Assembly: GCA_949987565.1 (NCBI GenBank)
Contig: OX465105.1
Span: 17,907,159-17,971,158 of the forward strand
Direction: 5' to 3'
DNA from: Luidia sarsii
Lineage: Eukaryota; Echinodermata; Asteroidea; Paxillosida; Luidiidae
DNA: 64,000 bases
Part shown: piece after piece, positions 3,994 to 39,490 of the stretch
How the letters are laid out: every line of letters begins with the position of its first letter
How positions within the stretch are numbered: the first letter of the stretch is position 1
Program-made: the position numbers and the translations under genes
Notes under the pieces: generated by a model
Seen by the model: only the letters and a program-made list of their open reading frames with translations
What the model was told of the DNA's origin: nothing
The model's database searches: none

Positions 3994-4121
3994 ATGAGTC
4001 TAGTATTCACTGTGGTCATCAGTTGTCTGGTTCCTCTATGTATGGCTCAGACCCTCCCAGCGGAGTTGCAGGGAAATGGCCAAAACGTCATAATGGCGAT
4101 GAAAACGCACTTCTGCACGAG
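3994..4121 (+). CDS. Unit A exon 1: signal peptide
   Basis: The reading frame from ATG 3994 begins MSLVFTVVISCLVPLCMAQ, a compact hydrophobic signal peptide with likely cleavage after the Ala of CMA. A second in-frame ATG at 3961 would add an 11-residue basic extension (MGRRPPLRGAT); it is conserved in units B and C, so the true start is uncertain. The exon ends with AG before GTATAT, phase 2. It is nearly identical to the exons at 14873 and 31426. Confidence 0.8.
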
Positions 4122-7100
4122 GTATATTTTTGTATTGTAAAAAAATGTTTATTTAAATGGCCCATCATTTCCATTCTAGGAGGAACATTCCCAAAGTCAG
4201 ATCCTTCGGCAAGGATTGAAACGCCAGATCATCAATTATCTCGTATACAATAATTCGGTCATATTTATTAGCCAAGAAGCGGATTGTGGCATAATGTAGA
4301 TCTATGGTAATGAAGTACTTGTGTCGCTTACAGGACATTCCATTGCAGTTGTATGCCCCGCCTCCGCGGTGCCAAGTAATATACAGCTTATATTGCACTA
4401 TACCGAAGAGTACTTGGCATTTTCCTGATTACCATAAAGTCGTTGGTAACTATGGTAACTTAGTAAGGAAGTACGTGTATGTGCCGCTAACAGAACATTC
4501 CATTGCACTTGTATGCCGCCCCCGACCACCCCCCCCCCTCCCCTCCGCTGGGACAAGTAATAAACAGATTATCTTGCAGTATACCGAAGAGTACTTGGCA
4601 TTTTCCTAAACCTTAACCTCCCAATTTTCAAATTCTATCCCACCGTTTACTGTGCAGTTCGCCAGGAGATACGTGTCCTACGGGCGAGTCATCAAAGTCC
4701 CTATGCTGGTTTCTTTGTCATATGCAACCTGACAAACGTACAGCATGTCAATCCGATACAGGTTGGTTAGTTACCTTGGGAACGGTCATTCGTGATCATC
4801 AATATCGATATCAGAAACCCTTGGTAATGTTAATTGTTTCACTAAGTGTAGAGTTCTCTGCATTGACATCTAATCGGTATCTTGACCAGCACAGGTCATA
4901 GTATCGACGAGTAACTAACATGACGCCAACATTTCTGATAAACCCAGACACAATTCTTCGGTTTGTATACCGTCTCGGCTGCAGACAAACTGTTTACAGT
5001 TGACCACCGCGCCTCAAAGGCGTTGATATTAGTCTGCCATGCATGGGATTGCGTGATTATGGATTAGGGCCTGATAATCACGTGAGAACATGATAATTGT
5101 TAAAAGAACCCGTTATTGATATAAGTTCCACCTGCAAGAAAAATAACACACAAAGGGGGGCCTCATCTATCAGCGTAATTACTATTATACGTGGGCCGAA
5201 ATGTTGGCTTGCATTGTCATCATTAGGTAATAAGAATAAGAATAATAATTATGAGCAATGTAGAAAGCGCTTAAGGCAATGTGTCTAGGCTCTTCAAAAC
5301 TTTATTATGCAACTTAACCCTGCGAGCAGTGAAGCGTGGAAAAACAATTACGCCAACCTCCGGAGGCGCCAACGCAGAAGGTACTTTTGATTTTGCGTGT
5401 AAAATACTACTTTGTGGACACAATTGTTTCTTTAATGGTCTTATTTTTATGAATACAGGTCCCCAGAACATGCCCACACAAGATTGAACCATTCTGGGTA
5501 TTTACATGTGGGTTTTTTTCTTAAAAAAACTACGTCGCGTCCCTTAATTAGGTGTTAACGCATGAGCCATTTTTGTCAGATGTTAGTGACATTGAATCTT
5601 CCCAGTCAGATTCAGATGCAGCTGATGTATCCACATAACTCTCCAAACTCCCTTCACTCCACCATCTAGATAGAATTCCATGCAAGACATCCGCACTCGA
5701 AATCTTGCTTGTCGAAGCCAAAATGCACTGCAGGCATGCACTGTGAAAAAGTGCATTGGCTTTTTGGTGCACAAGTGAATGGGCGTGGAGAAAGGCCCCA
5801 CTTTCTCAGGGGGGTTGACCCCATAGGATCTCTTACAGGAGAATCGACACTACCATCTCAAACTACAGGGTTCACTCTAGAAATACACGGAGTTTCAAGT
5901 AAATTGGGAGAGAGCTTCATCCAAAAAAAAATAATAAAAAAAATGTGCCTTCCGAGTTGGCACCTCGACGGCTCGCAGGGTTAATGCACAATACAAAAAA
6001 TAGTATGAAGTGCAAATCAGTTTAAATCCTAACACACTGTGGCTACATGGGCATATAATTTATATAGACTGTCGGTTCCCAGGCACATGCCCCTTGGTGC
6101 TAATGCCCTGGCACCCCGCACATATAATACCAACATGACCAAAAATCATTTTGACTAAGAGACATGCATTATTATACATTTTAACATTCATTCATAACAG
6201 AAAAAGATCACTATAAAGTTTGACCAAAGTTTTGCTGTTGTTTAAAAGGAGCCGACTTTTGAATGTCACCTAACTGCTGTAATGTGTGAGCATTAATGAA
6301 AAGTTTGTCTGCCATAGGCAATCCAAGGTGCCATGACTCTACAAACCATTCACTAACCTGATGCAATCAACCAATTTGTCCCAGAACCATCATTTGCTTA
6401 AACACGAAAGGCCTCGGATAACAGAATGGGCATGCTCGCAAAAGTTTTGCTTACATTAATTTGTATGCTCAGCAATCACCATTTGATAACAGGGCTGAGG
6501 CAGTGTATGTCCATGAAATCCAGCATATTCCAATAAATTAACTGAGCGATAATGACAAGTTTGTCTGCCATAGACAACCCAAGGTGTCATGACCACGCAA
6601 ACCATACACACTACCGTATACTCCCTATACCGCTGCTGACCCGATGCAACCAACCAATTTTTTTTTTATTCAGGCGCCCCGGCACCAACAATTGCTTAAA
6701 CATGAAAGGCCTCGATTAACGGAATTGGGTATGCCCACAAAAGTTTTGCTTTTTATGCTAAGCAAACGATATTAAATTTTGCTTTAATACAGGGCTGAGG
6801 CAGTGCATGTTCATGAAATCCAGCAAATTATATCAAATTCCTACGGAGCTCTTTGCAGCTGGGCTCTGTTCAAGAGAATTTCTCACAACTCGGTTTTTCA
6901 TTGCATCAAACAGGACATCTTGCACCAGTAACATTGAACCTAAATAATTATTTAAACGCAGTGGCTGTTGTTACGGCAGTTGTCCGTGTGGTTCCCTGAC
7001 TTCACGGTCAGGATGTTTAGCTCTTGGAACCATACTATCAGCTAATAGACTGGTTCAACCAGCCTGCAATGCTGACGAAATACAATCAAGTCAGGGAACC

Positions 7101-10100
7101 ACACGGACGACTGCCGTAACAACAGCCACTGCGTTATTTAAAACACAGCTATCGTTATGGTGTATAGCAGCGTTGTAGGTCTTCCGACCGATCGCAACAC
7201 GTGAATATAGGCTATCCATTGTAGGAGGATGAGACCTTTGTTCAAATAAAATTCGAATAATAATGTTATCAATGAAATTATGAGTTGAATCGCTTGGGAA
7301 GATTAAAGAAATGTATGGGGGTCTTCTTTATTCAGGTCTCGAATGTCTGGTTTGTCTAGGTCTCTGTCTAGATCTCGCTCTCGATCTCCAGCTGTTGGGT
7401 CTAGACTATAACACCGTACCGTGTTCCATTCCGTTAGACGCTGGTGAGCCGATGTGCGGAGAGCCCGGCTCCCAAGATCGCCACTGCGGCTACGCAGATG
7501 CGATCGTGTGTGAATACAGCGACGGAAGCGGTTCGTGCGTGTACTCCGCCTCGACATCGCCGGGTCCGTTCTGCATTTGCAAAGACAGCAGCGGGAGCTT
7601 CCCGTCGACGCCATCTCGAATGAGGTAACTAAAGCGATCTTGATCATCTTTCATCATTTTATTTTCAGATGTTGGTAGTAAACCATTAGGGCCTAGTATT
7701 TGTACGATTATGTTTCAATGTGATTTCACCAACAAATTAAGCCACAGTTATGTTGTGCACCGACTTAATTCCACAACTTCCGAATGTGATTTCACCAACC
7801 AATCCAAACATCGGCCCTGCTTTTCCAGAATTACTTCAGAACAAAAATTAAGAAAAGTCATCCTGTTTTTACATAATCTATGAATGGGCTAAAACAAACA
7901 AAAGAAAAACTGACTAGGAACTTTTGAACACATTGAAAGATTGGCAAAGAAAACTTTGACCGGACCGGGATTTATGACCAGAATCTATGAATGTTAACCG
8001 ACCAGTTCCATATACCCGAACAAAAATCATTTGTACTTTCCGAAGTAAAACTAGAACGCGTTCGTACGGATTTCCCTCCCTTAAAAGTATTTCCTCACCT
8101 ATAGCGACGGCAAAGAGACCCATTTGAACAATTCGTAAGGAGTTTGGTCAACTTTTCTTGACAGAAATATCAAAATGAGAGGAACCGTTGACCCATTTAC
8201 CCCTTTGCCCTCATGTCGAACTGCTGTTATAACCATCGGTCTCTGTGGTATCTATGTATAATTGTTTTCCCATTCCAAATTTATTATTTGTTTCTATAAA
8301 AAATTCCGACTCACGAATTACCCGATATTGTCTAGGCCTACTAGACATGGGTGCTTGCGCTGTATATTCTTCTATGCAGTAATACTCGAAACGCCAAACC
8401 CCTTAAATGTACAGTGGCCCTCTGATGAGGACACGCCCAGTCATCGCCCGAAATGAACGGTACTTTGTAAACCGTAGACTTGTGGACATTGACGATGATA
8501 TTCATGCAGCCAGATGCTCTACACTGTCCATGCGACCCAACTACTTCATCAAGGATGGACATTACTAAAATTCTAGTTTTTGAGACTATAGGTGTAAGTA
8601 AACGGACTTACCTGCATTGATAATAGGCCTTAATTACTGAGCTCCAAGGGCCACGATTAACAACATTCGTGTCTGTTACAAACTACAGTAGTTGCAGCCA
8701 AGCCGGTGGGACGCAGACCCCTGAAACTCAGACCATTCAGGGAGACAGCGGGAGCCAGCCGCCTACTAGGCAATCCATAGACGGAATGCCTAGTAGTAGT
8801 AGCCACAAGCCAACGGCCTCGTCCGCTCCGATCACCACTCCTGGAGGAGACGGGACCGGGCCACCGCCCACGAGTCCTGCCGGCACCCAGCGGCCAACGA
8901 CGGCATCGCCCACCAGGCCCGGCACGGACGAACGCCTGGGCAATGCGGTCAGCGCATCCACCGTGGTCCTGGGCCTGGTCCTGGCTGTCGTTATACTCGT
9001 CTTTCTTCTCTTGGTGGTCCTGTGGCGACGAGGGAAACTCAAGGATCACTGCAAAGGGTCCCGGTAAGAAATGGAGACGGGGTGAATTTAAAAAGAGAGA
9101 GTGAGAGAGGAGAGAAAGAGTGGAGAGAGAAGGGGGAGAGAGGTGGGGAGAGAGGGGTTAGGAAAGAGCAAGAGATGAGAAAAGGGGAGAGAGGGGTGGA
9201 GGAGACAGGGATATGTAGGAAGGAGTGGGAAAGACACACAGACAGACAGACAGACAAGGAGAGACATGGAGAGACAGGGAAAGAGAGACAAACAAGGAGA
9301 GTGGTGAGGTTGAGAGAGGGAAAATAGAGAGTTAATGAAGAGATGGACGGAAAGGGACATGACGGAAGAGGGATTGAAAGGGAGAGCTAGAGAGATTGAG
9401 TGAGAGAGAGAGGGGGAGGTCGCGGAGAGCCATGATAACCCGAAGAAAACTCGCATTTTATTTTGTATATCTAGTAGTAAAGCAGTGTCCTGGCCCTTTT
9501 CTTTCACTTCAGGAAACCCAGCGAATCTCGCGCCATTGAAATGAATGCAGAAGGTAAGACTTTCCGGCACGGGTGAACTTTCATAGAGTTATGGGGAGTT
9601 CGTAATCTGCGTGGTTCGTGTGAAATGACCATTTTTATTGGGACTAAAAGGCAACTACTATCAACCCCTCCATCTCCGTTCAAACGGCACTCGTTACAGG
9701 TTCTGGAAGTTAATGAAAAGCACCAGGAGTGTGGTTCCCAGCCAAATTACGGTCAATCGGCTGTGTTGTACCGGATACCAGGCACGCAACACAATGCAGA
9801 GATAGCAGATGCTATACTTACCTATAATTATACAGACACTGAAAGCAATCGGTTTCAGGATGAGAATGTTCGGCAGCTCCTTTAACGGAGCATGCAGCAC
9901 GCACATTCCGTCTCTTTCATTTTCTGTACGCAATTATGCACATTCGACCATCCTGTTTAAAGGGGACGCTACACCCAATCAGGGGTGTACACTGTCAGAA
10001 TGTCAGAATGTTAGGCAACATATACCGGACATTATTTTGACCGATATTAGTCAAAACAGTTATGTGTCACTAGAAGCAGAACTTGGATAGTGCTGGTCAA

Positions 10101-10908
10101 ATTCAATCACAAACTCTTAGCAGTTTGAATCCAACTCTACAACTTGTTGGACATACGGTTTTGCCCAGAGTATAACGATGTCTTCGTGCCCGCTTTTGTT
10201 ATTTTAGTGACGACCGGTTCGTTCGAGCCCGGGCAACCGACGAAAGTAAACACAGCGGGCGCCCCAGGGACTGATGAGCCAGCATACTCCGAGATCGACC
10301 GTGACCGGTACGCGGGAGTTGAGAACGGGGCACTCACTGCGGACCGGCCACCGGAGGGAGACTCCGCCAGCTTTTACCACACCCTGGATCGGGGTGCCTC
10401 GTCCGAGGTACCCGGTGAGAGGCTCCCGTACACACCGCTGCGGACCCCGTCCGATGCCGCACCGGCAGACCGCTCCTACCAACCGCTGAGAGTTGTGAAC
10501 GGGAAACGCACGGCGGACCAGGTGCCGGAGGGAGTCTCCGCCAGCTTTTACCACACCCTGGAACCAGGTGCTCCGTCGGAGGTACCCGACGAGGACCTCC
10601 CGTACACACCGCTGCGGACCCCGTCCGATGCCGCACCGGCAGACCGCTCCTACCAACCGCTGCAGCCGGCCGCTCAGACCGCGCGGTACCAAAGCCCGCC
10701 ACCACACGACCGGCCCAGAGAGACACTGGCTTACGCCTCCACGAACATCGTGCCCGCCGACCCGCTGGCCACTCTCGATGCCGGTGCCTCGGCCTACGAC
10801 CGCCTGGGCGGCGGGTCGCAGAAGGCGCCACCGACCGAGGGCGTCCCGCCCAATGACCCCAGCTCCGGCTACGATAGCCTCAATTTCGGCGGCCCTAGGA
10901 AGCAGTGA
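3994..10908 (+). CDS. Unit A: type I membrane receptor with multi-ITIM-like tail (six-exon gene model)
   Basis: Hand-built model joining 3994-4121, 4658-4761, 7405-7624, 8689-9063, 9513-9553 and 10208-10908. All junctions are GT/AG, phases agree throughout, and the sum is 1569 nt, giving 522 aa. Residues 1-18 are a signal peptide. Residues 19-153 are Cys-rich (12 Cys plus one at the stalk start). Residues 154-239 are a Ser/Thr/Pro-rich stalk. Residues 240-263 are a hydrophobic helix, followed by RRGKLK. Residues 264-522 are cytoplasmic and hold two 58-residue modules (327-442). Tyrosines 346, 364, 404, 422, 486 and 511 fit (I/V/L/S)xYxx(I/V/L); 316, 380 and 438 are plain YxxI/L. By analogy with ITIM receptors the tail would recruit SH2-domain phosphatases or kinases at the plasma membrane; this is inference. 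I do not recognise the ectodomain as a named family. Exon 3 could instead start at 7438 (511 aa). Confidence 0.78.
4122..4657. repeat. Unit A intron 1 with an internal tandem duplication
   Basis: Two related segments (about 4305-4435 and 4440-4605) share GCTAACAGAACATTCCATTG-type and TACCGAAGAGTACTTGG blocks. The same duplication appears in unit B, where it also copied exon 2. Confidence 0.6.
4658..4761 (+). CDS. Unit A exon 2: first cysteine-rich exon
   Basis: The acceptor is TACTGTGCAG and the donor CAG/GTTGGT. The exon starts in phase 2, ends in phase 1 and encodes 34 complete codons with four Cys: SPGDTCP, SLCWFLCHM and RTACQSDT. It is too short to stand out as an ORF. It was found by phase matching and confirmed by the equivalents in unit B (16002-16108) and unit C (31879-31961), where the Cys pattern is kept while other residues and length change. 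Confidence 0.75.
5314..5984. mobile_element. piggyBac-like element in unit A intron 2
   Basis: TTAA at both ends (5314-5317 and 5981-5984) flanks inverted termini CCCTGCGAGC...GCTCGCAGGG. A TTAA target duplication with CCC-starting termini is the piggyBac hallmark. At 671 bp the element is too short for a transposase. A 74-codon minus-strand ORF (5548-5772) with an acidic SESDWEDS stretch could be a remnant N-terminus, but this is weak. Absent at the same intron in B and C. Confidence 0.7.
6040..6850. repeat. Unit A intron 2 tandem segment (~250 bp, two copies)
   Basis: Segments around 6300-6530 and 6550-6850 share the TGTCTGCCATAG, CAACCAATTT and ACAGGGCTGAGGCAGTG blocks. Unit C has a single copy near 32610-32860. 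No exon is supported here. Confidence 0.6.
6949..7141. mobile_element. Palindromic MITE in unit A intron 2
   Basis: Arms 6955-7002 and 7088-7135 are inverted repeats of 48 nt with a single mismatch, starting AACGCAGTGG, separated by an 85-bp loop. The direct repeat TATTTAA flanks the element (6949-6955 and 7135-7141). The matching position in unit B (about 16975) has no insertion. Confidence 0.85.
7405..7624 (+). CDS. Unit A exon 3: second cysteine-rich exon
   Basis: Encodes 72 full codons with seven Cys, including VPC, PMCGEPG, RHCGYADAIVCEY, GSCVYS and a terminal FCICKDSSG. The closing CxC resembles small EGF-like or EB-type modules, but I cannot assign a family. The donor is AATGAG/GTAACT, phase 2. 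Two phase-1 acceptors are possible: GGGTCTAG (start 7405) or CCGTTAG (start 7438, dropping the first Cys). Unit C can only use the second. Confidence 0.78.
7625..8688. other. Unit A intron 3
   Basis: About 1.06 kb of AT-rich intron. Its first 120 bp and last 300 bp match unit B intron 3; the middle (about 7745-8330) is absent or replaced in B. No coding signal was seen. Confidence 0.6.
8689..9063 (+). CDS. Unit A exon 4: stalk, transmembrane helix and stop-transfer
   Basis: Encodes 124 full codons: a Ser/Thr/Pro/Gly-rich stalk likely to be O-glycosylated, then a 24-residue hydrophobic helix (ASTVVLGLVLAVV onwards), then WRRGKLKDHCKGSR. The basic cluster on the C-terminal side sets type I topology, with the tail in the cytosol. 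The acceptor is CTACAG at 8688; TTGCAG at 8697 is also in phase. The donor is CCCG/GTAAGA, phase 2. Confidence 0.82.
9085..9420. repeat. GA-rich tract in unit A intron 4
   Basis: A purine-rich GAGAGGG-type tract beginning about 20 bp after the exon 4 donor. Equivalent tracts follow exon 4 in units B and C. Confidence 0.85.
9513..9553 (+). CDS. Unit A exon 5: 41-nt juxtamembrane micro-exon
   Basis: A 41-nt exon lies between a strong acceptor (TTTCTTTCACTTCAG) and the donor GAAG/GTAAGAC. It encodes KPSESRAIEMNAE just inside the membrane and changes the phase from 2 to 1. It is conserved as 41 nt at 20651, 26252 and 34340, which supports a coding role. Confidence 0.75.
10208..10908 (+). CDS. 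Unit A exon 6: cytoplasmic tail with tandem tyrosine modules
   Basis: The acceptor is TTGTTATTTTAG; the exon runs to TGA at 10906-10908 and encodes 232 residues. After PAYSEID come two 58-residue modules, each with SFYHTL, LPYTPL and RSYQPL, then a shared end with SAYDRL and SGYDSL. YTPL and YQPL are separated by 12 residues, the long limit of ITAM spacing. Codon third positions are strongly G/C-biased, unlike the AT-rich flanks. A long minus-strand ORF over this exon is a by-product of that bias. Confidence 0.85.
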
Positions 10909-13620
10909 AATCGACCCCGTCCCCACGAAGAGACCCCCATTCGATTCCAAGCAATATCACCATTACTATAACGTACCATAACTTGAAATACCGCCATTCA
11001 AATGTTTCACATCAGCCATGCAGTCCTGAAATACGTCGCTTGCTGTGTAAACTATAACGTGAATTTAGTATGGAAAGTATAACGTGAATCAATAATGAGT
11101 GATGAATCGTTTTGATACAGTATAAATCTTGGACCGAATTGCAAACGAAGATACAACTTGTATATACCTGAAAACCACTTTATATGGTTGCTGTGTATGC
11201 CCTATGCAATACCTCATCAAAAACACGTGTGTATTATTTTTGGTTTTAATGCCTTGATAAAACAATGTTAATATACTGCGGTCTGATTCATAAATATATA
11301 ATACTTTCATGATTATATAGTTTATTATACCCAGAAGAAAAAAAGCTTTCCTTTTTATTTTGAAAATTACTGTTTATTATGAAATCCATGAAAATCATTT
11401 GCACATTTTGAAGATTCTCATTCCATATATTTTTTCATCCACTTTTGCCTTATTATACACAGATTGCCATTGTTAATAATGCCATAACATCTTTGGAACT
11501 GCATGTAGGCCTATTATAGAAGTCTATTCTGACTTTAAGAACCAGAGGGTTAGTGTTAGTGGTTACTTTTCGTATTAAATATTATATTTTTAACGGTGAA
11601 ATTATTTAAAAAAATAAAAGTAATGTCCTTTCAAACTTTGGTATTCTAATTGCCTTTAGTTGTGTAAGTTTTAATTATCGCCATCCAAATTACACAGAAT
11701 GCAATATTCCTCATTATTCTCTTACGTTGTATAGAATTAGGTCGAATAAGTACAGACGTAATCATTATTATGTAATCATACATCGACGTGCGTTTATCAG
11801 CGCTGGTTCCCTCATCATTGGTATGTTCTTAAATCATTTCAGTAAGATCAGTCAGATTAAATACTAATAAGTGAAAAACTTAACTTGATTTAATTTAAAG
11901 GGAAATGCAACCCACAGAAAAATGTTGGCTTATCTGATTGGGTGTTAAAAACAACCTACAATTACCTATGTGCTACTCACCTACGAGTTTCATGAAGAGG
12001 GGAAAATCGTGGAATTCAGTGGTCGAATTTGAATTCCGCCACCCGCCAGGGGCACCCTTTAAAATGGTATGACAATGTTTCATGATGGAAATTAAGGCCA
12101 CTTCCTGAGCACTACATGCCCTCGAATCTAGCAATTATACTCTGTAAAAGCAACCTTCAACGAGCATCAGGAAACATAATACTCGCCACAATGGTAGAGT
12201 AAAATTTATCAGTCTATCTGGTTCAGGGTCAATGAAAAACCCTAACTGTACTCTGAGCTTCTGTATGACGAAGATCAAACAACTGGCTGCAGTTGTCAAA
12301 GTCATGCAGCCATAGGTAATAAACTAAATACTTAGAAACTGTTCAGACGTATGTGCTTGAATTAGTTACATCATCCTGTTCTACGACCCCACCTCAACAT
12401 TAGACACTATTGTGTCGCAAGATAATGATTATTCTCACTGCAGACGACTTGCTACGGTACGCTGTGTGTAAAGACATTCTCTCGTGTGATTGGGGGCCTT
12501 AGAATTCACCAATATGAAAATGTTACATACCTTTAAATGTTGGAGGATAGTTTTCCCCCAAACGTCATTTTCACCTGACTCTTCGACATGTGGCCTTGTA
12601 ATAAGATGTCACTATGGAAACGTATTGTATGTGTACTAGTATACTGCACTGGTATACACCTGTGCATGGGTATATGTAAAAAAGGGTGTAACAAATATAT
12701 TTATGTTATACAGGAAATTTTTAGAAGAATGGAATTAAAACAAGAGCCTTGTTCTTAATTAAGGTGAGTTGCTTCATGCAATCTTGTTTTGTGTGGTTGA
12801 AAACTATTAAGCGAAGAGTCTTTATCTGATCCGGAATTTGAATCTCAGGCTTCGGTCGGTTTGAAGCACCGGCACTCTTCCACCTGATCTATCCAGCTCT
12901 AAGCTAGGCTGCTAGGACACTGCCCCCAAAAAACAATAATAAACTGTCTTTGGTGAGATGCTGAGTAAAGAAGAGTGGAAAACAAGTCAGGAGCAATTGA
13001 GGTCGCATCATAATGTGCTTTGTAATCCTGTTTAAGAGACTGAGGAAGACTTGTCATGCTTAGCAGATGTGCACACTTAAGCGGCTCTATGGAAGTGGGC
13101 CCTGTTTGCAAAACTTATGCAAATCATTGAAATAGCAAACCGTTGATAATCCGATCAACACATGCATCTCAATAACACAATGGAGTCCATAACCCGATAG
13201 ATGGCGATATGATCTGCTGATATTCATTATTTCTATCCAGTCATGTGAGACGCAAGTTGAGTCCGAGTCCGAGTCTTTTGTTTTCGTGACTGGAGTTCAA
13301 GACAGAGACATGAGTCCGAGTCCGAGTTCGAGTCCGAGTCCAAGTCAGAGTACGAAAACATTGAAAAAGTACAATCAGGCACTGAAGGTAAAAGACAATC
13401 CGACAGAATCAATCTCTGATGAGTTCAAAGTTGCCCTGAAATCCCACTTCTTTGTTAGCAGTTATAATTAGTTCTTGATTATTTTTTGCTTTTCTTTTAC
13501 TGCTTTTTCTTGTAATGCTTTAGGAGCGTCTCTTGAAGCGGATACCGGCGCGTTATAAATGTTTGTTATTATTTATTATAAATGATTTCTATTCTCATTT
13601 CCTTCTGGCTATAGGCCTAG
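10909..13620. other. 3' flank of unit A
   Basis: AT-rich spacer without supported genes. From about 11000 it is nearly identical to 36570-39290 after unit C and more diverged from 28300-29840 after B'. It ends with a GCGTTATAAATGTTTGTTA retroelement-like tail (about 13550-13580) followed by the next unit's upstream region. Confidence 0.6.
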
Positions 13621-13744
13621 CTAAAACTTGTTATGGATAGGGAAAGGGGGCAGAACCAGCGAGATCGTGGTTAAGGTTGTCCCCTGAATGTGCTCGATCA
13701 ACCGACTCTCATTGGCTTTCAATTTAGGTGTGTTTGAGATCAAT

Positions 13745-13918
<174 letters not shown>

Positions 13919-14872: not shown

Positions 14873-21644
<6,772 letters not shown>

Positions 21645-21830
21645 GTATCCGACGATGACCTGCAGTACACGCAACTGCGGACCCCGGCCCCGTCCGTTGC
21701 CGTACCAGCAGACCGCCCCTACCACTGACCGCTGCCGCCAGCCGCTCAGACCTCGCGGTACCAAAGCTCGCCACCACACGAGACCACCACGAGGGAGACA
21801 CTGGCCTACGCCTCCACGAGCATCTAGAAT
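21645..21830 (+). pseudogene. Unit B exon 6: untranslated, decayed remainder
   Basis: This sequence is homologous to the second module and terminal part of intact tail exons but lies behind the nonsense codon. It contains an additional in-frame TGA and small length changes. The residues around TLAYAST can still be read. Confidence 0.6.
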
Positions 21831-25534: not shown

Positions 25535-26092
25535 AGCACTGTGAACGAAACGACATATCGTTCCCTCGAAACGTCATTTCGTTCACTCGAAATGTCGTTT
25601 TGTTCCCTTGAAACCTAGTTTCGTTCAATCGAAACCTGGTTTCGTTCAAAAGAAACCTGGTTTCGTTCCCTCGAACATGTTGAAACCTGGTTTCGTTCCC
25701 TTGAACATGTTGAAACCTGGTTTCGTTCCCTCGAACATGTTGAAACCTGGTTTCGTTCCCTTGAACATGTCGAAACCTGGTTTCGTTCCCTCGAACATGT
25801 CGAAACCTGGTTTCGTTCCCTCGAACATGTTGAAACCCGGTTTCGTTCCCTCGAACATGTTGAAACCTGGTTTCGTTCCCTCGAACATGTCGAAACCTGG
25901 TTTCGTTCCCTCGAACATGTTGAAACCTGGTTTCGTTCCCTTGAACATGTTGAAACCTGGTTTCGTTCCCTCGAACATGTTGAAACCTGGTTTCGTTCCC
26001 TCGAACATGTTGAAACCTGGTTTCGTTCCCTCGAACATGTTGAAACCTGGTTTCGTTCCCTCGAACATGTTGAAACCTGGTTTCGTTCCCTT
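25535..26092. repeat. 30-bp minisatellite (GAAACCTGGTTTCGTTCCC core)
   Basis: About 14 copies of a 30-bp unit (GAAACCTGGTTTCGTTCCC plus TCGAACATGT), preceded by more diverged copies with GAAACGTCATTTCGTTC. GAAACC/GGTTTC makes each unit nearly self-complementary. The 30-nt period keeps ORFs open on both strands, which is not evidence for coding. It ends in the chimeric junction at 26093. Confidence 0.95.
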
Positions 26093-26116
26093 GAACATCG
26101 TGCCCGCCGACCCGCT
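26093..26116. other. 24-bp fragment of tail exon at minisatellite/B' junction
   Basis: These 24 bp are identical to an internal piece of exon 6 (10743-10766 in unit A, the INIVPADPL-coding region). On the left they continue the minisatellite's GAACAT; on the right they join intron 4 sequence matching 34204 onward. This marks a recombination junction. Confidence 0.8.
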
Positions 26117-26251: not shown

Positions 26252-26292
26252 GAAACCCAGCGAAACTCGCGCCATCGAAATGAACGCAAAAG
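26252..26292 (+). CDS. Orphan B' cassette exon 5: micro-exon
   Basis: A 41-nt micro-exon (KPSETRAIEMNAK) with acceptor TTTCACTTCAG and donor AAAG/GTAAGA, almost identical to 34340-34380 of unit C. No exons 1-4 lie between unit B and this copy, so it would only be used if spliced to unit B exon 4, which is phase-compatible. Confidence 0.55.
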
Positions 26293-26903: not shown

Positions 26904-27604
26904 TGACGACCGGTTCGTTCGAGCCCGGGCAACCGACGAAAGTAAACACAGCGGGCGCCCCAGGGACTGATGAGCCAGCATACTCCGAGATCGACCGTGA
27001 CCGGTACGCGGGAGTTGAGAACGGGGCACTCACTGCGGACCGGCCACCGGAGGGAGACTCCGCCAGCTTTTACCACACCCTGGATCGGGGTGCCTCGTCT
27101 GAGGTACCCGGTGAGAGGCTCCCGTACACACCGCTGCGGATCCCGTCCGACGCCGCACCGGCAGACCGCTCCTACCAACCGCTGAGAGTTGAGAACGGGA
27201 AACGCACGGCGGACCAGGTGCCGGAGGGAGTCTCCGCCAGCTTTTTCCACACCCTGGAACCAGGTGCTTCGTCGGAGGTACCCGACGAGGACCTCCCGTA
27301 CACACCGCTGCGGACCCCGTCCGATGCCGCACCGGCAGACCGCTCCTACCAACCGCTGCAGCCGGCCGCTCAGACCGCGCGGTACCAAAGCCCGCCACGA
27401 CACGACCGGCCCAGAGAGACACTGGCTTACGCCTCCACGAACATCGTGCCCGCCGACCCGCTGGCCACTCTCGATGCCGGTGCCTCGGCCTACGACCGCC
27501 TGGGCGGCGGGTCGCAGAAGGCGCCACCGACCGAGGGCGTCCCGCCCAATGACCCCAGCTCCGGCTACGATAGCCTCAATTTCGGCGGCCCTAGGAAGCC
27601 GTGA
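26904..27604 (+). CDS. Orphan B' cassette exon 6: intact two-module tail
   Basis: A 701-nt tail exon of the same length as unit A's, open to TGA 27602-27604. It keeps SFYHTL, LPYTPL and SYQPL in module 1 and LPYTPL, SYQPL, SAYDRL and SGYDSL later. In module 2 the SFYHTL tyrosine codon is TTC (27245-27247), giving SFFHTL. With unit B exons 1-4 it would make a 523-residue receptor. Confidence 0.6.
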
Positions 27605-31425: not shown

Positions 31426-31553
31426 ATGAATCTAGTATTCACTGTGGTCATCAGTTGTCTGGTTCCTCTATGTATGGCTCAGACCCTCCCAGCGGAGTTG
31501 CAGGGAAATGGCCAAAACGTCATGATGATGATGACAAGGCGCTTCTGCTCGAG
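31426..31553 (+). CDS. Unit C exon 1: signal peptide
   Basis: 128 nt, beginning MNLVFTVVISCLVPLCMAQ, with donor TCGAG/GTATAT in phase 2. A run of four Met codons near its end replaces the IMAM of unit A. The upstream in-frame ATG at 31393 is conserved. Confidence 0.75.
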
Positions 31554-34500
31554 GTATATTTTTGTCTTGTAATCCATAAAATACATAATATGACTGTTTT
31601 GCTTAATTTAGAAGGCCCATCGTTTTCATTCTAGCTGGAACTTTCCCGATGGCAGAGCCTTATGCCTTCCTACAAGGATCGAAATACTAGGCCCTTGATA
31701 ACTTTGGTCATATTAGCCTAGAATTAGAGCATATTTTGTAGTTGTTATGCCCAAAATACCCCACCTATCATACACTGCATTGAAGAGTACTTGCCCTTCC
31801 ATGGCATGAAGTTGTTATTATATACCTCCATTTCCCAATTTTCAAAATTAACTTGATTTCAACTTGCCTGTTCGACAGAATGCAAGGACAGTGTCCTCAG
31901 ATGCCCTTGTCCCTATGCGAGTATCTTTGCGACGGGAGTGTAGAATGCAAAAACGGAACAGGTTGGTTACCTTAGGAACGGTCATTTAAATGTACCAATC
32001 GGTATCGGAAATCCTTGGTTAATATAATTATGTAAAGAAATAAACACGGGACCTTGCTTTGTTTACTAAAATGTAGAGTTCGTTTTCTGCATTGATATGG
32101 AATCGGAATGCTGACCAACGTGGTCCATAATAATACGAGTAATATGATGGATTGTGTCCGTAAGAATCAACCACAAAACCGGCAACATTTCTGATAAATC
32201 AAGACAAATTTTGTTTGCAAACGCTCTGCAAACGGAAGGCGTTTTCAGTTCAATAAGGTGTTTAACCGTCTCGGCTTACAAACTGTTTACTGTTATGACC
32301 ATATCTCAGAGGCGATAATACTATAGTCTGTCATGCAAGTTCGTGATTGCTGCACACGTGCCGGCGTGCTTAATACATATAACTTAGATCTGCAATAGGG
32401 CCTGATATTCACAAGTCTAGAGAACATGATAATCGTTATTTCAGCTGAAAATTAAAATAATCCAATATCATGCCGTTCTTAGATACACGCACGAAGGGGC
32501 GTCATCTTCCGGCGTTATTACTACGTGGGTCGAAAATTCCACCGATGGAGTTTACTTTCATCGCCATTATCAAGTCACCAAACTGATTTAATTTGTAAGA
32601 TTTAATGCAGTCTGTCTGCCATAGGCAACCCAAGGTGCAATGATGACCACGCGAACCCGCTACTAATTACCTGATGGAAACATGAACAACCAATTTCATT
32701 CAGGCGTCCCAGTACCGACATTGGCACAAACATAAAAGGCCTCGATTATAAACCGAATGTGTAGACTCGCCAAATGTTTACCGGTACATCTACTTGCATT
32801 GTTATGCTAGTAAGCAATCAATATTTGATTACAGGGCTGAAGCAGTGTCCATGAAAACTAGCATACTTGTTTTAACAAATCTTACAAATTACTATGGAGC
32901 TCTTTGCTGTTCGGCCCTGTTCGAGAGAATTCATCTTTACAAACCTCCTCTGTGAAGGTATCGCGGTCTCTGTCTCGGTTCTGTCTCTACCTTTGCCTCT
33001 GCCTCTGTCTCTGTCTCTGCCTCTGACTCTGCCTGTCTCAACGTGTCTCTGCCTCTGCATCTGTCTCTGTCTTAGTCTTTGTCTAGGTCTCTGTCTCGCT
33101 CTCGGTCTCGCGATTACAAGACCGTACCGTATTGAATTATGTTAGGTGCTGGTGGACCGAAGTGCCGAGAGCCTGGCTCCCAGTATCGCCACTGCGGCTA
33201 CGCAGATGCGATCGTGTGTAAATACAGCGATGAAAGGGGTTCATGCGTGTACTCCGACTCGACATCATTTCGTCCGTTCTGCATTTGCAAAGACAGCAGC
33301 GAGAACTTCCCGCGGAAGCCATCTCCAATGAGGTAACTAAAGCAATCTTTTACCATTTTTTTTTCTTCAAATGTTGGTTGTAAGTCAGCAGTATTTTTAC
33401 AATTCTTTTGTGCACCGGCTTCATTCCACAACGACGGCAAAGTGGGCCATTTGAAGGCTTTGTAAGTAGACCCTTCCAACAACCATTGTGGCTAAATTTT
33501 CCTGTGCGGTGGCCCACCGATCCGGTCATCGCACGAAATTAACGGTACTTCGTTAACCCCAGATTTGTGGACATTATCGATGTTGATTAAGTAACGTTGC
33601 ATATTCATTCAGCCAGATGCTCTACACAGTCCATACGACTCAACTACTGCATCCAAGATAAAGATTACTAACATTCTGATATTAGAGGTCTAAGGACTTA
33701 CCTGCACTTACAACATTCGTGTATGTCACATACGACAGGAGTTGCAGCCAAGGTGTTGGGAGGCAAACCCCTGAACCCCAGCCAACGACGGCATCGCCCA
33801 CTAGGCCCGGCACGGACGAACGGCTGGACAATGCGGTCAGCGCAGCCGCCGTGGTCCTGGGAGTGGTTCTGGCTGTCGTTCTACTCGTCTGTCTCCTTCT
33901 GGTGGTCCTGTGGCGACGTGGGAAAATCAAGGTTCGCTGCAAAGGGTCCCGGTAAGAAAGAGATACGTGTAGAGAGATGGGATTGAGAAAGGATAGGAAG
34001 AAGAGAGAGAGGTGGAGAGAGAGGAAAAAGAGTGTGTTACAGAAGTGAAGAGATGAAAGGAAATAGAGATGGGAAGAGGGGTGTGGAGGAAGAGATACAG
34101 AGAAAAAGTGGGAGGAAGAGAGAGAGAAAGAAAAGGGAATGAAAAAGTCTACGTAAATTGTCGATTTGCAATTTGTCTCAGCCATGGGCCAATCACAAAT
34201 CAGTTCTCCACTCCGGTCCTCTACGGTCATGCTACAAGCAACACCATATAGATATATGTTAGCTGTAGCAGGTCTGACGAAAACACTCGAATTCGTAGTA
34301 GGCCTAATGCAGTGTCCTGGCCCTTTCCTTTCACTTCAGGAAACCCAGCGAAACTCGCGCCATCGAAATGAACGCAAAAGGTAAGACTTTCCGGCACATG
34401 TGAACTTTTATTAGAGTTAGAGGAGTTCATAATCTGTGTGGTTCGTGTGAGAGGGCCAATTTTATCTGGTGAAAAGGGCAGCCACTATCACCCCTTCCAC

Positions 34501-35866
34501 CTACGTTCAAGCGGTTCTCATTACGGGAACTGCAATTTGATGAAATGCCTGACTATGAGTGATTCCCAGCCAAATATCGGTCATTTTGCACCAGGAAGAT
34601 TCTATACAATACCTTTAAACAGAGAATAAAAATTCGGTTTTAGGATGAGAATGCTCGACAGCTCCAGTAACGGATCAGCACGCACATTCCATCTCTTTTT
34701 TTTCTGTAGGCTACGCAATTATGCACATTCGACCATCCAGTTTAAAGGGGACGCTACACCCTATTAGGGGTGTACACTGTCAGAATGTAAGAATGTTAGG
34801 CAACAGATACCGAACATTATTTTGACCGATAACAGTCAAAATATTAACAGTTATGTGTCAATAGAAGCAGAACTTTTGGATCAAATTCACTCACAAACTC
34901 TCAACAGTTTGAATCCAACTCTACAACTTGTTGGACATACGGTTTTGCCCAGAGTATAACGATGTCCTCGTGCCCGCTTTTGTTATTTTAGTGACGACCG
35001 GTTCGTTCGAGCCCGGGCAACCGACGAAAGTAAACACAGCGGGCGCCCCAGGGACTGATGAGCCAGCATACTCCGAGATCGACCGTGACCGGTACGCGGG
35101 AGTTGAGAACGGGGCACTCACTGCGGACCGGCCACCGGAGGGAGACTCTGACAGCTTTTACCACACCCTGGATCGGGGTGCCTCGTCTGAGGTACCCGGT
35201 GAGAGGCTCCCGTACACACCGCTACAGACTCCGTCCGACGCCGCACCGGCAGACCGCTCCTACCAACCGCTGAGAGTTGAGAACGGGGCACTCACGGCGG
35301 ACCAGGTGCCGGATGGAGTCTCCGCCAGCTTTTACCACACCCTGGATCGGGGTGCCTCGTCTGAGGTACCCGGTGAGAGGCTCCCGTACACACCGCTACA
35401 GACTCCGTCCGATGCCGCACCGGCAGACCGCTCCTACCAACCGCTGAGAGTTGGGAACGGGAAACGCACGGCGGACCGGGTGCCGGAGGGAGTCTCCGCC
35501 AGCTTTTACCACACCCTGGAACCAGGTGCTTCGTCGGAGGTACCCGACGAGGACCTCCCGTACACACCGCTGCGGACCCCGTCCGATGCCGCACCGGCAG
35601 ACCGCTCCTACCAACCGCTGCAGCCGGCCGCTCAGACCGCGCGGTACCAAAGCCCGCCACCACACGACCGGCCCAGAGAGACACTGGCTTACGCCTCCAC
35701 GAACATCGTGCCCGCCGACCCGCTGGCCACTCTCGATGCCGGCGCCTCGGCCTACGACCGCCTGGGCGGCGGGTCGCAGAAGGTGCCACCGACCGAGGGC
35801 GTCCCGCCCAATGACCCCAGCTCCGGCTACGATAGCCTCAATTTCGGCGGCCCTAGGAAGCCGTGA
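31426..35866 (+). CDS. Unit C: paralogous receptor with three-module tail and short stalk (gene model)
   Basis: Join of 31426-31553, 31879-31961, 33146-33332, 33739-33951, 34340-34380 and 34992-35866: 1527 nt, 508 aa, phases consistent. Relative to unit A, exon 2 is seven codons shorter, exon 3 must start at a downstream acceptor to avoid TGA 33133-33135, the stalk is 54 codons shorter, and the tail has one extra 58-residue module (exactly 174 nt more). The tail therefore carries eight ITIM-like tyrosines: three SFYHTL, three LPYTPL, SAYDRL and SGYDSL. It is probably functional if the shifted exon 3 acceptor works. Confidence 0.65.
31879..31961 (+). CDS. Unit C exon 2: first cysteine-rich exon (diverged)
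   Basis: The acceptor is TGTTCGACAG and the donor CAG/GTTGGT. 27 full codons read MQGQCPQMPLSLCEYLCDG and then VECKNGT. Four Cys and the SLCxxLC core are kept while the loops are shortened in frame. This is the most diverged exon between units A and C. Confidence 0.6.
32965..33110. repeat. CT-rich tract before unit C exon 3
   Basis: Degenerate CTCTGC/CTCTGT/CTCGGT hexamers, the short counterpart of the unit B array. They end 35 bp before the shifted acceptor at 33145. Confidence 0.85.
33146..33332 (+). CDS. Unit C exon 3: second cysteine-rich exon with shifted acceptor
   Basis: The unit A/B acceptor CTAGAC is destroyed (reads GCGATTAC) and the first Cys region has become TAT TGA. Starting after ATGTTAG at 33145 restores phase 1 and gives 61 codons with six Cys (PKCREPG, RHCGYADAIVCKY, GSCVYS, FCICKDSSE). 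The equivalent acceptor also exists in units A and B, so it may be the ancestral site. Confidence 0.55.
33739..33951 (+). CDS. Unit C exon 4: short stalk and transmembrane helix
   Basis: 213 nt. The exon keeps SCSQGVGRQTPEPQPTT, then joins the TASPTRPGTDERL end of the stalk and the helix (AAAVVLGVVLAVVLLV onwards) with WRRGKIK. It lacks 162 nt of the Ser/Thr/Pro stalk present in A and B, an in-frame deletion. Confidence 0.75.
33955..34140. repeat. GA-rich tract in unit C intron 4
   Basis: A purine-rich tract directly after the exon 4 donor, shorter than in A and B. Confidence 0.8.
34340..34380 (+). CDS. Unit C exon 5: juxtamembrane micro-exon
   Basis: A 41-nt exon (KPSETRAIEMNAK) with acceptor TTTCACTTCAG and donor AAAG/GTAAGA. 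Its surroundings are nearly identical to the B' cassette. Confidence 0.7.
34992..35866 (+). CDS. Unit C exon 6: three-module cytoplasmic tail
   Basis: 875 nt ending at TGA 35864-35866, encoding 290 full residues. Three 58-residue modules follow PAYSEID; the second is closest to the first (shared TPLQTPSD), indicating recent internal duplication. All module tyrosines are intact. The end (SAYDRL, SGYDSL) matches units A and B'. Confidence 0.82.
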
Positions 35867-38807: not shown

Positions 38808-38966
38808 GAGTCCGAGTCCGAGTCTTTTGTTTTCGTGACTGGAGTTCAAGACAGAGACATGAGTCCGAGTCCGAGTCTTTTGTTTTCGTGACTGGAGTTC
38901 AAGACGGAGACATGAGTCCGAGTCCGAGTCTTTTGTTTTCGTGACTGGAGTTCAAGACAGAGACAT
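38808..38966. repeat. 53-bp tandem triplication
   Basis: Three adjacent 53-bp copies beginning GAGTCCGAGTCCGAGTC and ending GACAGAGACAT (the second reads GACGGAGACAT). After unit A the same sequence is present once (13258-13310). Confidence 0.9.
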
Positions 38967-39290
38967 GAGTCCGAGTCCGAGTTCGAGTCCGAGTCCAAGT
39001 CAGAGTACGAAAACATAATTTTGGAAAAAGTACAATCAGGCACTGAAGGTAAAAGACAATCCGACAGAATCAATCTCTGATGAGTTCAAAGTTGCCCTGA
39101 AATCCCACTTCTTTGTTAGCAGTTATAATTAGTTCTTGATTATTTTTTGCTTTTCTTTTACTGCTTTTTCTTGTAATGCTTTAGGAGCGTCTCTTGAAGC
39201 GGATACCGGCGCGTTATAAATGTTTGTTATTATTTATTATAAATGATTTCTATTCTCATTTCCTTCTGGCTATAGGCCTAGCTAAAACTT

Positions 39291-39490
39291 NNNNNNNNNN
39301 NNNNNNNNNNNNNNNNNNNNNNNNNNNNNNNNNNNNNNNNNNNNNNNNNNNNNNNNNNNNNNNNNNNNNNNNNNNNNNNNNNNNNNNNNNNNNNNNNNNN
39401 NNNNNNNNNNNNNNNNNNNNNNNNNNNNNNNNNNNNNNNNNNNNNNNNNNNNNNNNNNNNNNNNNNNNNNNNNNNNNNNNNNNNNNNNNN
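39291..39490. other. Assembly gap of 200 N
   Basis: The left side ends in CTAGCTAAAACTT, which after unit A continues into the next unit's upstream region. The right side is unrelated purine-rich repeat. The round size suggests an arbitrary scaffold gap of unknown true length. Confidence 0.99.

Follow-up and report, generated by a model that had tools for sequence, protein, structure and literature searches.

A tandem family of predicted single-pass receptors with a repeated ITIM-like tail module in the sea star Luidia sarsii

We investigated a stretch of 64,000 nucleotides from the sea star Luidia sarsii (GenBank assembly GCA_949987565.1, contig OX465105.1, positions 17,907,159 to 17,971,158 of the forward strand), referred to as the window, in which tblastn and blastn detected four related units on the same strand, named C1 to C4 in the following. 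For the first of these an initial annotation had proposed six phase-consistent exons encoding a signal peptide, a cysteine-rich ectodomain, a Ser/Thr/Pro stalk, one helix and a tail with tyrosine motifs, as well as amplification in tandem. The four units bear out the amplification, and the gene model was reproduced: C1 (3994-10908, + strand) consists of six GT-AG exons that translate in one open frame, and all of the proposed parts are predicted by translation and hydropathy. Exon 1 (3994-4121) carries the start codon, a signal peptide at about 3994-4047 according to inspection and hydropathy, and the first ectodomain residues up to a GT donor; its amino acid identity is 85.7% to exon 1 of C2 and 83.3% to exon 1 of C4. 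Exon 2 (4658-4761), bounded by AG and GT, encodes a cysteine-rich part of the ectodomain whose cysteine pattern is retained in the divergent exon 2 of C4. A second cysteine-rich part with six cysteines follows in exon 3 (7438-7624), while exon 4 (8689-9063) contains the last ectodomain cysteines, the stalk, the transmembrane helix and basic juxtamembrane residues. Exon 5 (9513-9553) encodes the juxtamembrane tail and has 41 bases and the same phase in all four units. Translation and motif statistics assign the cytoplasmic tail and the stop codon to exon 6 (10208-10908). C1, C2 and C4 each have GT and AG dinucleotides at all 10 splice sites, and exon phases are identical across these three copies.

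From its junctions and topology, both predicted from the DNA, the C1 product is a type I single-pass membrane protein. In the hydropathy profile, a signal-like segment at the N-terminus is followed by a single further hydrophobic segment at about 8954-9025, with a peak of 3.63 over 19 residues. This helix, ASTVVLGLVLAVVILVFLLLVVLW, has no charged residue, as is also the case in C2 and C4, which suggests that C1-type receptors would signal through their own tail rather than through a charged-helix adaptor. The residues RRGKLK stand directly after the helix, and because they lie on the tail side of the sole further hydrophobic segment, hydropathy predicts a cytoplasmic tail, in line with the orientation assumed before. 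Long antisense open frames over the tail exon were rejected, since splice sites, phases and helix are all on the + strand. Intron 2 of C1 contains a near-perfect inverted repeat at 6955-7135 with 48-nt arms (6955-7002 and 7088-7135) that are 98% complementary and 85 nt apart; these arms may be the termini of a small mobile element.

The start of exon 3 had been left at 7405 or, alternatively, 7438. We consider 7438 the more likely start in C1, because in C4 the 7405 acceptor is absent (AG is replaced by CG) and the frame is interrupted by a TGA within the 33 additional bases, and because the shorter form has 12 invariant cysteines. The C4 sequence thus led us to discard 7405 as the main form. 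An AG is present at both positions in C1 and C2 and only at the 7438 equivalent in C4, so the 7405 form may be a variant in C1 and C2. Use of 7438 gives 511 amino acids with an even number of 12 ectodomain cysteines, and use of 7405 gives 522 with a thirteenth cysteine added. The tyrosines listed earlier (346, 364, 404, 422, 486 and 511) are found at these positions in the 522-residue version and are numbered 11 lower in the 511-residue form.

The tail of C1 comprises 259 residues with 12 tyrosines, six of which fit a strict pattern resembling the immunoreceptor tyrosine-based inhibitory motif (ITIM), [ILVS]xYxx[ILV], while ten fit the core Yxx[ILV]. In 20,000 shuffles of the tail the means were 0.26 strict and 1.33 core sites, and none reached either observed count. 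As the tail contains a duplication, we repeated the test after removing one repeat module: four strict and seven core sites remained compared with shuffle means of 0.18 and 0.99, again reached in none of 20,000 shuffles. The six ITIM-like sites of the initial annotation are therefore present at far more than the shuffled frequency. Its three additional YxxL/I sites correspond to YSEI and twice YQPL, and RYAGV adds a fourth Yxx[ILV] site. The tyrosine codons of SAYDRL (the former Y486) and SGYDSLNF (the former Y511) lie at 10795-10797 and 10870-10872 on the + strand. Strict sites number six in C1, eight in C4 (of 15 tyrosines), five in C3 and two in C2 up to its stop. C1 thus combines consensus sites in a predicted cytoplasmic part with a predicted single membrane pass, two of the features by which an ITIM-bearing receptor is recognized. 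The patterns YxN, YxxM, NPxY and TxYxx[VI] were not matched in the tails of C1, C3 and C4, C2 has one YxN, and PPxY was absent from the tails of C1 and C4.

Within the tail exon lies an in-frame tandem repeat of 174 bp (58 amino acids), present in two copies in C1 and C3 and in three copies in C4. The C1 modules a (10315-10488) and b (10489-10662), both on the + strand, comprise 58 codons each. Each module contains three tyrosine sites, SFYHTL (SFFHTL in one module), LPYTPL and SYQPL. When all seven modules were compared, 17 of 58 positions were variable; among the motif positions, the tyrosines and their +3 residues, this applied to one of six, a Tyr to Phe change in C3, and among the others to 16 of 52. 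Of the 14 sites of the SFYHTL and LPYTPL types in these modules, 13 conform to the ITIM consensus, SFFHTL of C3 being the exception. Residues of both the a type and the b type occur in the middle module of C4, a combination expected from unequal exchange. Between the homologous modules C1a and C4a we counted five synonymous and two nonsynonymous changes (P = 0.02, uncorrected, for one pair picked out of 21).

Intact frames were found for C1 (511 amino acids) and C4 (508 amino acids). C4 (31426-35866, + strand; exons 31426-31553, 31879-31961, 33146-33332, 33739-33951, 34340-34380 and 34992-35866) has a diverged ectodomain, a shorter stalk and three tail modules. Its exon 4 is 54 codons shorter than that of C1, chiefly in the stalk, which would place the ectodomains of the two copies at unequal distances from the membrane. 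C2 (14873-21827, + strand; exons 14873-15000, 16002-16108, 18984-19170, 19649-20023, 20651-20691 and 21322-21827) keeps exons 1-5, and an in-frame TAG in the tail, with a further stop downstream, leaves 386 amino acids. C3 (26252-27604, + strand) is a fragment of exons 5 and 6 only (26252-26292 and 26904-27604), the tail frame of which is open with one tyrosine changed to phenylalanine. A 30-bp minisatellite at 25652-26098 (14.9 copies, 96% match) precedes C3 where the upstream exons are lost, and is possibly the breakpoint of the truncation. A degenerate extra copy of exon 2 is present in C2 at 15599-15746, with 52% amino acid identity to C1 exon 2 over 23 residues including CWFLCH, which appears to be a trace of ectodomain exon duplication. 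An alternative exon 2 of C2 near 15655-15746 was discarded: an acceptor is present, but the AG/GT pairs scanned gave no in-phase exon free of stops. Intron 2 of C2 further holds a hexamer repeat of about 1.6 kb (CTGCCT, then CTCGGT; 17184-18823) that ends 161 bases before exon 3, and the open frames of 550-611 amino acids within it are artefacts of the repeat.

The three ectodomain-bearing copies C1, C2 and C4 share 12 invariant cysteines in a 6 + 6 layout, the second set with a CxC. C1 and C4 have all 12 in common even though they differ at 37% of the other 107 aligned ectodomain positions; were cysteines as free to change as these other positions, such retention would have a probability of about 0.004, and on the same assumption the figures are 0.10 for C1-C2 and 0.006 for C2-C4. 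Overall the ectodomain is without a purifying signal, the ratio of nonsynonymous (dN) to synonymous (dS) divergence being near 1 (dN and dS 0.221 and 0.202 for C1-C4, 0.085 and 0.094 for C1-C2, 0.211 and 0.185 for C2-C4).

The initial annotation had proposed a hidden Markov model search, and ectodomain and whole protein were compared to Pfam, which gave no recognized domain. The only match of the whole C1 protein (E 0.23) and that of the three ectodomains (E 4.3) were unrelated and not significant, and across whole protein, ectodomains and sub-parts the best E value was 0.19, under every cut-off. For C1 and the three ectodomains Pfam returned no immunoglobulin (Ig) family, by sequence only, no sushi family and no leucine-rich repeat (LRR) match. 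The cysteine spacing of exon 3 and the start of exon 4, C-x7-C-x8-C-x11-C-x1-C-x16-C, is loosely EGF-like, a reading of the pattern for which Pfam gave no support. A Pfam scan of two copies with E up to 10 returned no EGF match, although the HMMER filters drop most matches this weak; its sole match was Bowman-Birk (E 0.19) in one copy. Significant relatives were also missing from a PDB sequence search, in which a phage protein (E 0.41), three factor H chains, the only sushi proteins matched (best E 0.43), and three antibody heavy chains (E 1.9-2.3) were all at chance level. A protein database, probably poor in relatives of this animal, gave no match at E up to 1 for full-length C1, the C4 ectodomain or the C4 tail, with 7998, 9 and 8000 candidates scored, those for C1 and the C4 tail being the ones sharing most words with the query. 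The absence of matches says little about novelty if that database holds few animal proteins. A receptor of this description was likewise absent among the matches listed in the open-access literature, searched by text and not by sequence. The earlier description of the family as undescribed therefore holds in so far as no significant relative emerged from these sources, and is tempered by collections that are perhaps poor in animal proteins.

We next compared the copies along the tail exon. Identity between C1 and C4 is 0.73-0.90 in intron 5, rises to 0.99 from about 80 bases before exon 6 and remains at 0.93-1.00 across the tail and a further kilobase beyond it. In intron 5 as a whole, identity is 0.995 between C3 and C4 and 0.882 between C1 and C4. 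At sites where two of the three copies C1, C3 and C4 agree, C3 equals C4 in 92 of 95 cases upstream of exon 6. Inside exon 6 the 16 such sites are divided among C1 and C3 (8), C3 and C4 (5) and C1 and C4 (3), and in the 3' flank C1 equals C4 in 73 of 93. Since the best-matching partner changes across the tail exon, C4 looks like a recombinant with a switch in or near this exon. Together with the jump in identity just before it, this makes the tails look homogenized by recombination while the ectodomains diverge. Strong purifying selection was rejected as the main cause of tail identity: dS of the C1-C4 tail is itself low (0.037), identity in the 3' flank reaches 96.6%, and exchange therefore accounts for the near-identity of the tails better than selection would by itself. 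Such exchange would leave the ectodomains free to differ. The net length differences between C1 and C4 exons (21, 162 and 174 bp) are all multiples of three.

Elsewhere in the window, three stretches between 404 and 2269 (no strand assigned) have similar counterparts in the flanks 3' of C1 and C4: 404-498 matches 13039-13132 (80%), 1975-2269 matches 13627-13917 (79%, partly CT-rich), and 653-758 matches 13264-13355 (74%) while 650-758 matches 38916-39010 (73%), both partly minisatellite. Because of this resemblance a further unit may exist to the left of the window, of which 404-2269 is perhaps the end. An assembly gap of 200 N at 39291-39490 interrupts the 3' flank of C4 where the flank of C1 continues to the next unit, and at this point the assembly could lack a further copy; to the right of the gap, tblastn and blastn gave no convincing receptor-like match. 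Other genes were not recognized in the window, where the Pfam scan covered ten long open reading frames around the genes (of 112 with at least 100 amino acids), none of which reached a cut-off. The list of GC-rich open reading frames outside the genes, taken as a list and without a database search of them, showed no obvious gene, and Rfam gave 0 matches. The window has a GC content of 0.44 and a CpG observed/expected ratio of 0.69, and introns and long microsatellites are present, features that by themselves fit an animal and probably an invertebrate.

In our best reading, to which we give a probability of about 0.5, the family would encode inhibitory receptors that recruit phosphatases with Src homology 2 (SH2) domains through the tail. 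The 12-cysteine ectodomain on its mucin-like stalk would bind a ligand, upon engagement a Src-family kinase would phosphorylate the repeated [S/L]xYxxL sites, and these would dock tandem-SH2 phosphatases (SHP-2/SHP-1 type, or SHIP), which in turn would dampen a neighbouring activating signal. The number of modules, two or three, would set the docking sites per receptor. With tail exons exchanged or homogenized among copies and ectodomains diverging, different ligand binding would be joined to one signalling tail. The DNA itself establishes the gene anatomy, the motif enrichment, the numbers of copies and modules and the sequence mosaic; expression, phosphorylation, phosphatase recruitment, inhibition and an immune role are inferred.

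Several observations weigh against this reading. SYQPL, YSEI and YAGV are not strict ITIMs, ITIM-like sites are also found in non-immune proteins, and two of the four copies (C2 and C3) are damaged. Selection on the tail is suggested at most, with a dN of 0.017 against the dS of 0.037 for C1-C4, on 9 and 7 changes (binomial P = 0.10), and the b-type module pairs C1b-C3b, C1b-C4c and C3b-C4c all have 0 synonymous and 3 nonsynonymous changes. The ectodomain ratio near 1 would also fit relaxed constraint. Taken singly, gaps whose length is a multiple of three are not clearly more frequent in exons than in introns: leaving out the C2 tail exon, 3/7 exon gaps compare with 12/41 in introns 4 and 5 for C1-C4, 2/6 with 9/40 for C2-C4 and 1/1 with 17/45 for C1-C2. 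For C1-C4 the gap-by-gap picture is blurred by the alignment of exon 2, in which several small gaps fit only as a sum.

Each module also holds Yxx[IL]-x12-Yxx[IL], a sequence compatible with an immunoreceptor tyrosine-based activation motif (ITAM) of long spacing. In an activating or dual receptor, YTPL-x12-YQPL could then act as an extended ITAM that recruits a Syk-type kinase, either by itself or in alternation with phosphatases. Matches to Yxx[IL]x6-12Yxx[IL] number two in C1, three in C4, two in C3 and one in C2, every spacer being 12, and in module b acidic residues precede YTPL (DEDLPYTPL). The classic ITAM has a spacing of 6-8 and the hemITAM consists of acidic residues followed by GYxxL; neither Yxx[IL]-x6-8-Yxx[IL] nor the hemITAM pattern was matched in any of the four copies, and the six and eight strict ITIM-like sites of C1 and C4 point away from activation. 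In favour of an activating or dual function, which we regard as a serious though less likely alternative, an ITAM is found in oyster CgIgIT2 (PMC11999971) and both ITIMs and hemITAMs occur at the fester co-receptor (FcoR) loci of Botryllus schlosseri (PMC12065747).

A role in endocytosis or adhesion is an alternative of similar, slightly lower probability. Here the Yxx-hydrophobic sites would be AP-2 sorting or general adaptor sites of a scavenger or adhesion molecule that has no inhibitory role, which agrees with the cysteine-rich ectodomain on a mucin-like stalk and with seven PxxP matches in the C1 tail. Yxx[ILV], fitted by 10 of 12 tyrosines in this tail, overlaps the AP-2 signal. One sorting signal normally suffices, however, and such signals do not require the S or L at -2 that the SFYHTL-type and LPYTPL-type module sites have in all 14 cases; a dileucine signal, [DE]xxxL[LI], was not matched. 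It is finally quite improbable that the open frames are those of drifting recent duplicates in a decaying or non-functional array, in which the motif count reflects repeat expansion. The tail stops of C2, the loss of exons 1-4 in C3, the ectodomain dN/dS near 1, the gap counts and the recent exchange that best explains tail similarity would all be expected of such an array. In C1 and C4, nevertheless, the frames are complete and the splice sites and all 12 cysteines are retained, the motif enrichment persists when one module is removed, and the excess of synonymous changes between C1a and C4a, an uncorrected pick as noted, also counts against decay.

Compared with known systems, the inhibitory reading places the family beside the vertebrate inhibitory receptors (LILRB, Siglec, CEACAM1, SIRP, PD-1), which share the ITIM consensus and have Ig-fold ectodomains and usually one to four ITIMs. 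None of them is known to have a 58-amino acid tandem tail module, and by sequence the C1-C4 family has no PDB relative. The short stretches YSEI and YDSLNF of the C1 tail bear some likeness to Siglec tails.

Among invertebrate chordates, amphioxus BbLcLRR is a membrane receptor that inhibits through ITIM or ITIM-like tail tyrosines and that, after T cell receptor stimulation in Jurkat cells, binds SHIP1 and, to a lesser degree, SHP1/2 (PMC8211107). The mechanism tested there, Lck phosphorylation followed by SHIP1 and SHP1/2 binding, is the one that we propose for C1-C4. BbLcLRR differs in its LRR/WSC ectodomain and three mapped tyrosines (PMC8211107), and is not known to carry a repeated tail module. 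The FcoRs of Botryllus are also multigene type I membrane proteins, of 520-610 amino acids compared with 508-511 in C4 and C1, with tails able to hold ITIM, hemITAM or core Yxx[ILV] motifs (PMC12065747). Their ectodomains consist of Ig and sushi domains (PMC12065747), neither of which was matched in the present family, whose tail is a repeated module. Oyster CgIgIT2 is likewise an invertebrate receptor with an immunoreceptor tyrosine motif, but has five Ig domains and an ITAM (PMC11999971); amphioxus FrLRR (PMC10199209) was set aside as unrelated. ITIM receptors of invertebrates and basal chordates are in print (PMC12065747, PMC8211107), which makes this a known kind of system. The elements that appear new are the unrecognized ectodomain, the repeated tail module of variable number and the tail-exon mosaic.

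If the inhibitory reading is correct, copies with two and three near-identical modules would provide a natural test of how the number of ITIMs relates to inhibitory strength. More tentatively, this could be a lineage-specific family that has an ectodomain fold not seen before and has evolved a modular ITIM array of variable copy number. Recombination at the tail exon, by spreading one signalling tail among diverging ectodomains, would then vary both valency and ligand binding within one gene cluster, an independent invention, outside Ig and lectin folds, of the kind of evolution seen in KIR and LILR. The reported range of ITIM/ITAM signalling extends from the allorecognition receptors of cnidarians and tunicates to mammals (PMC12065747), and a repeated ITIM-like module on an unrecognized ectodomain would mark the motif as a portable signalling output which new ectodomains can adopt.

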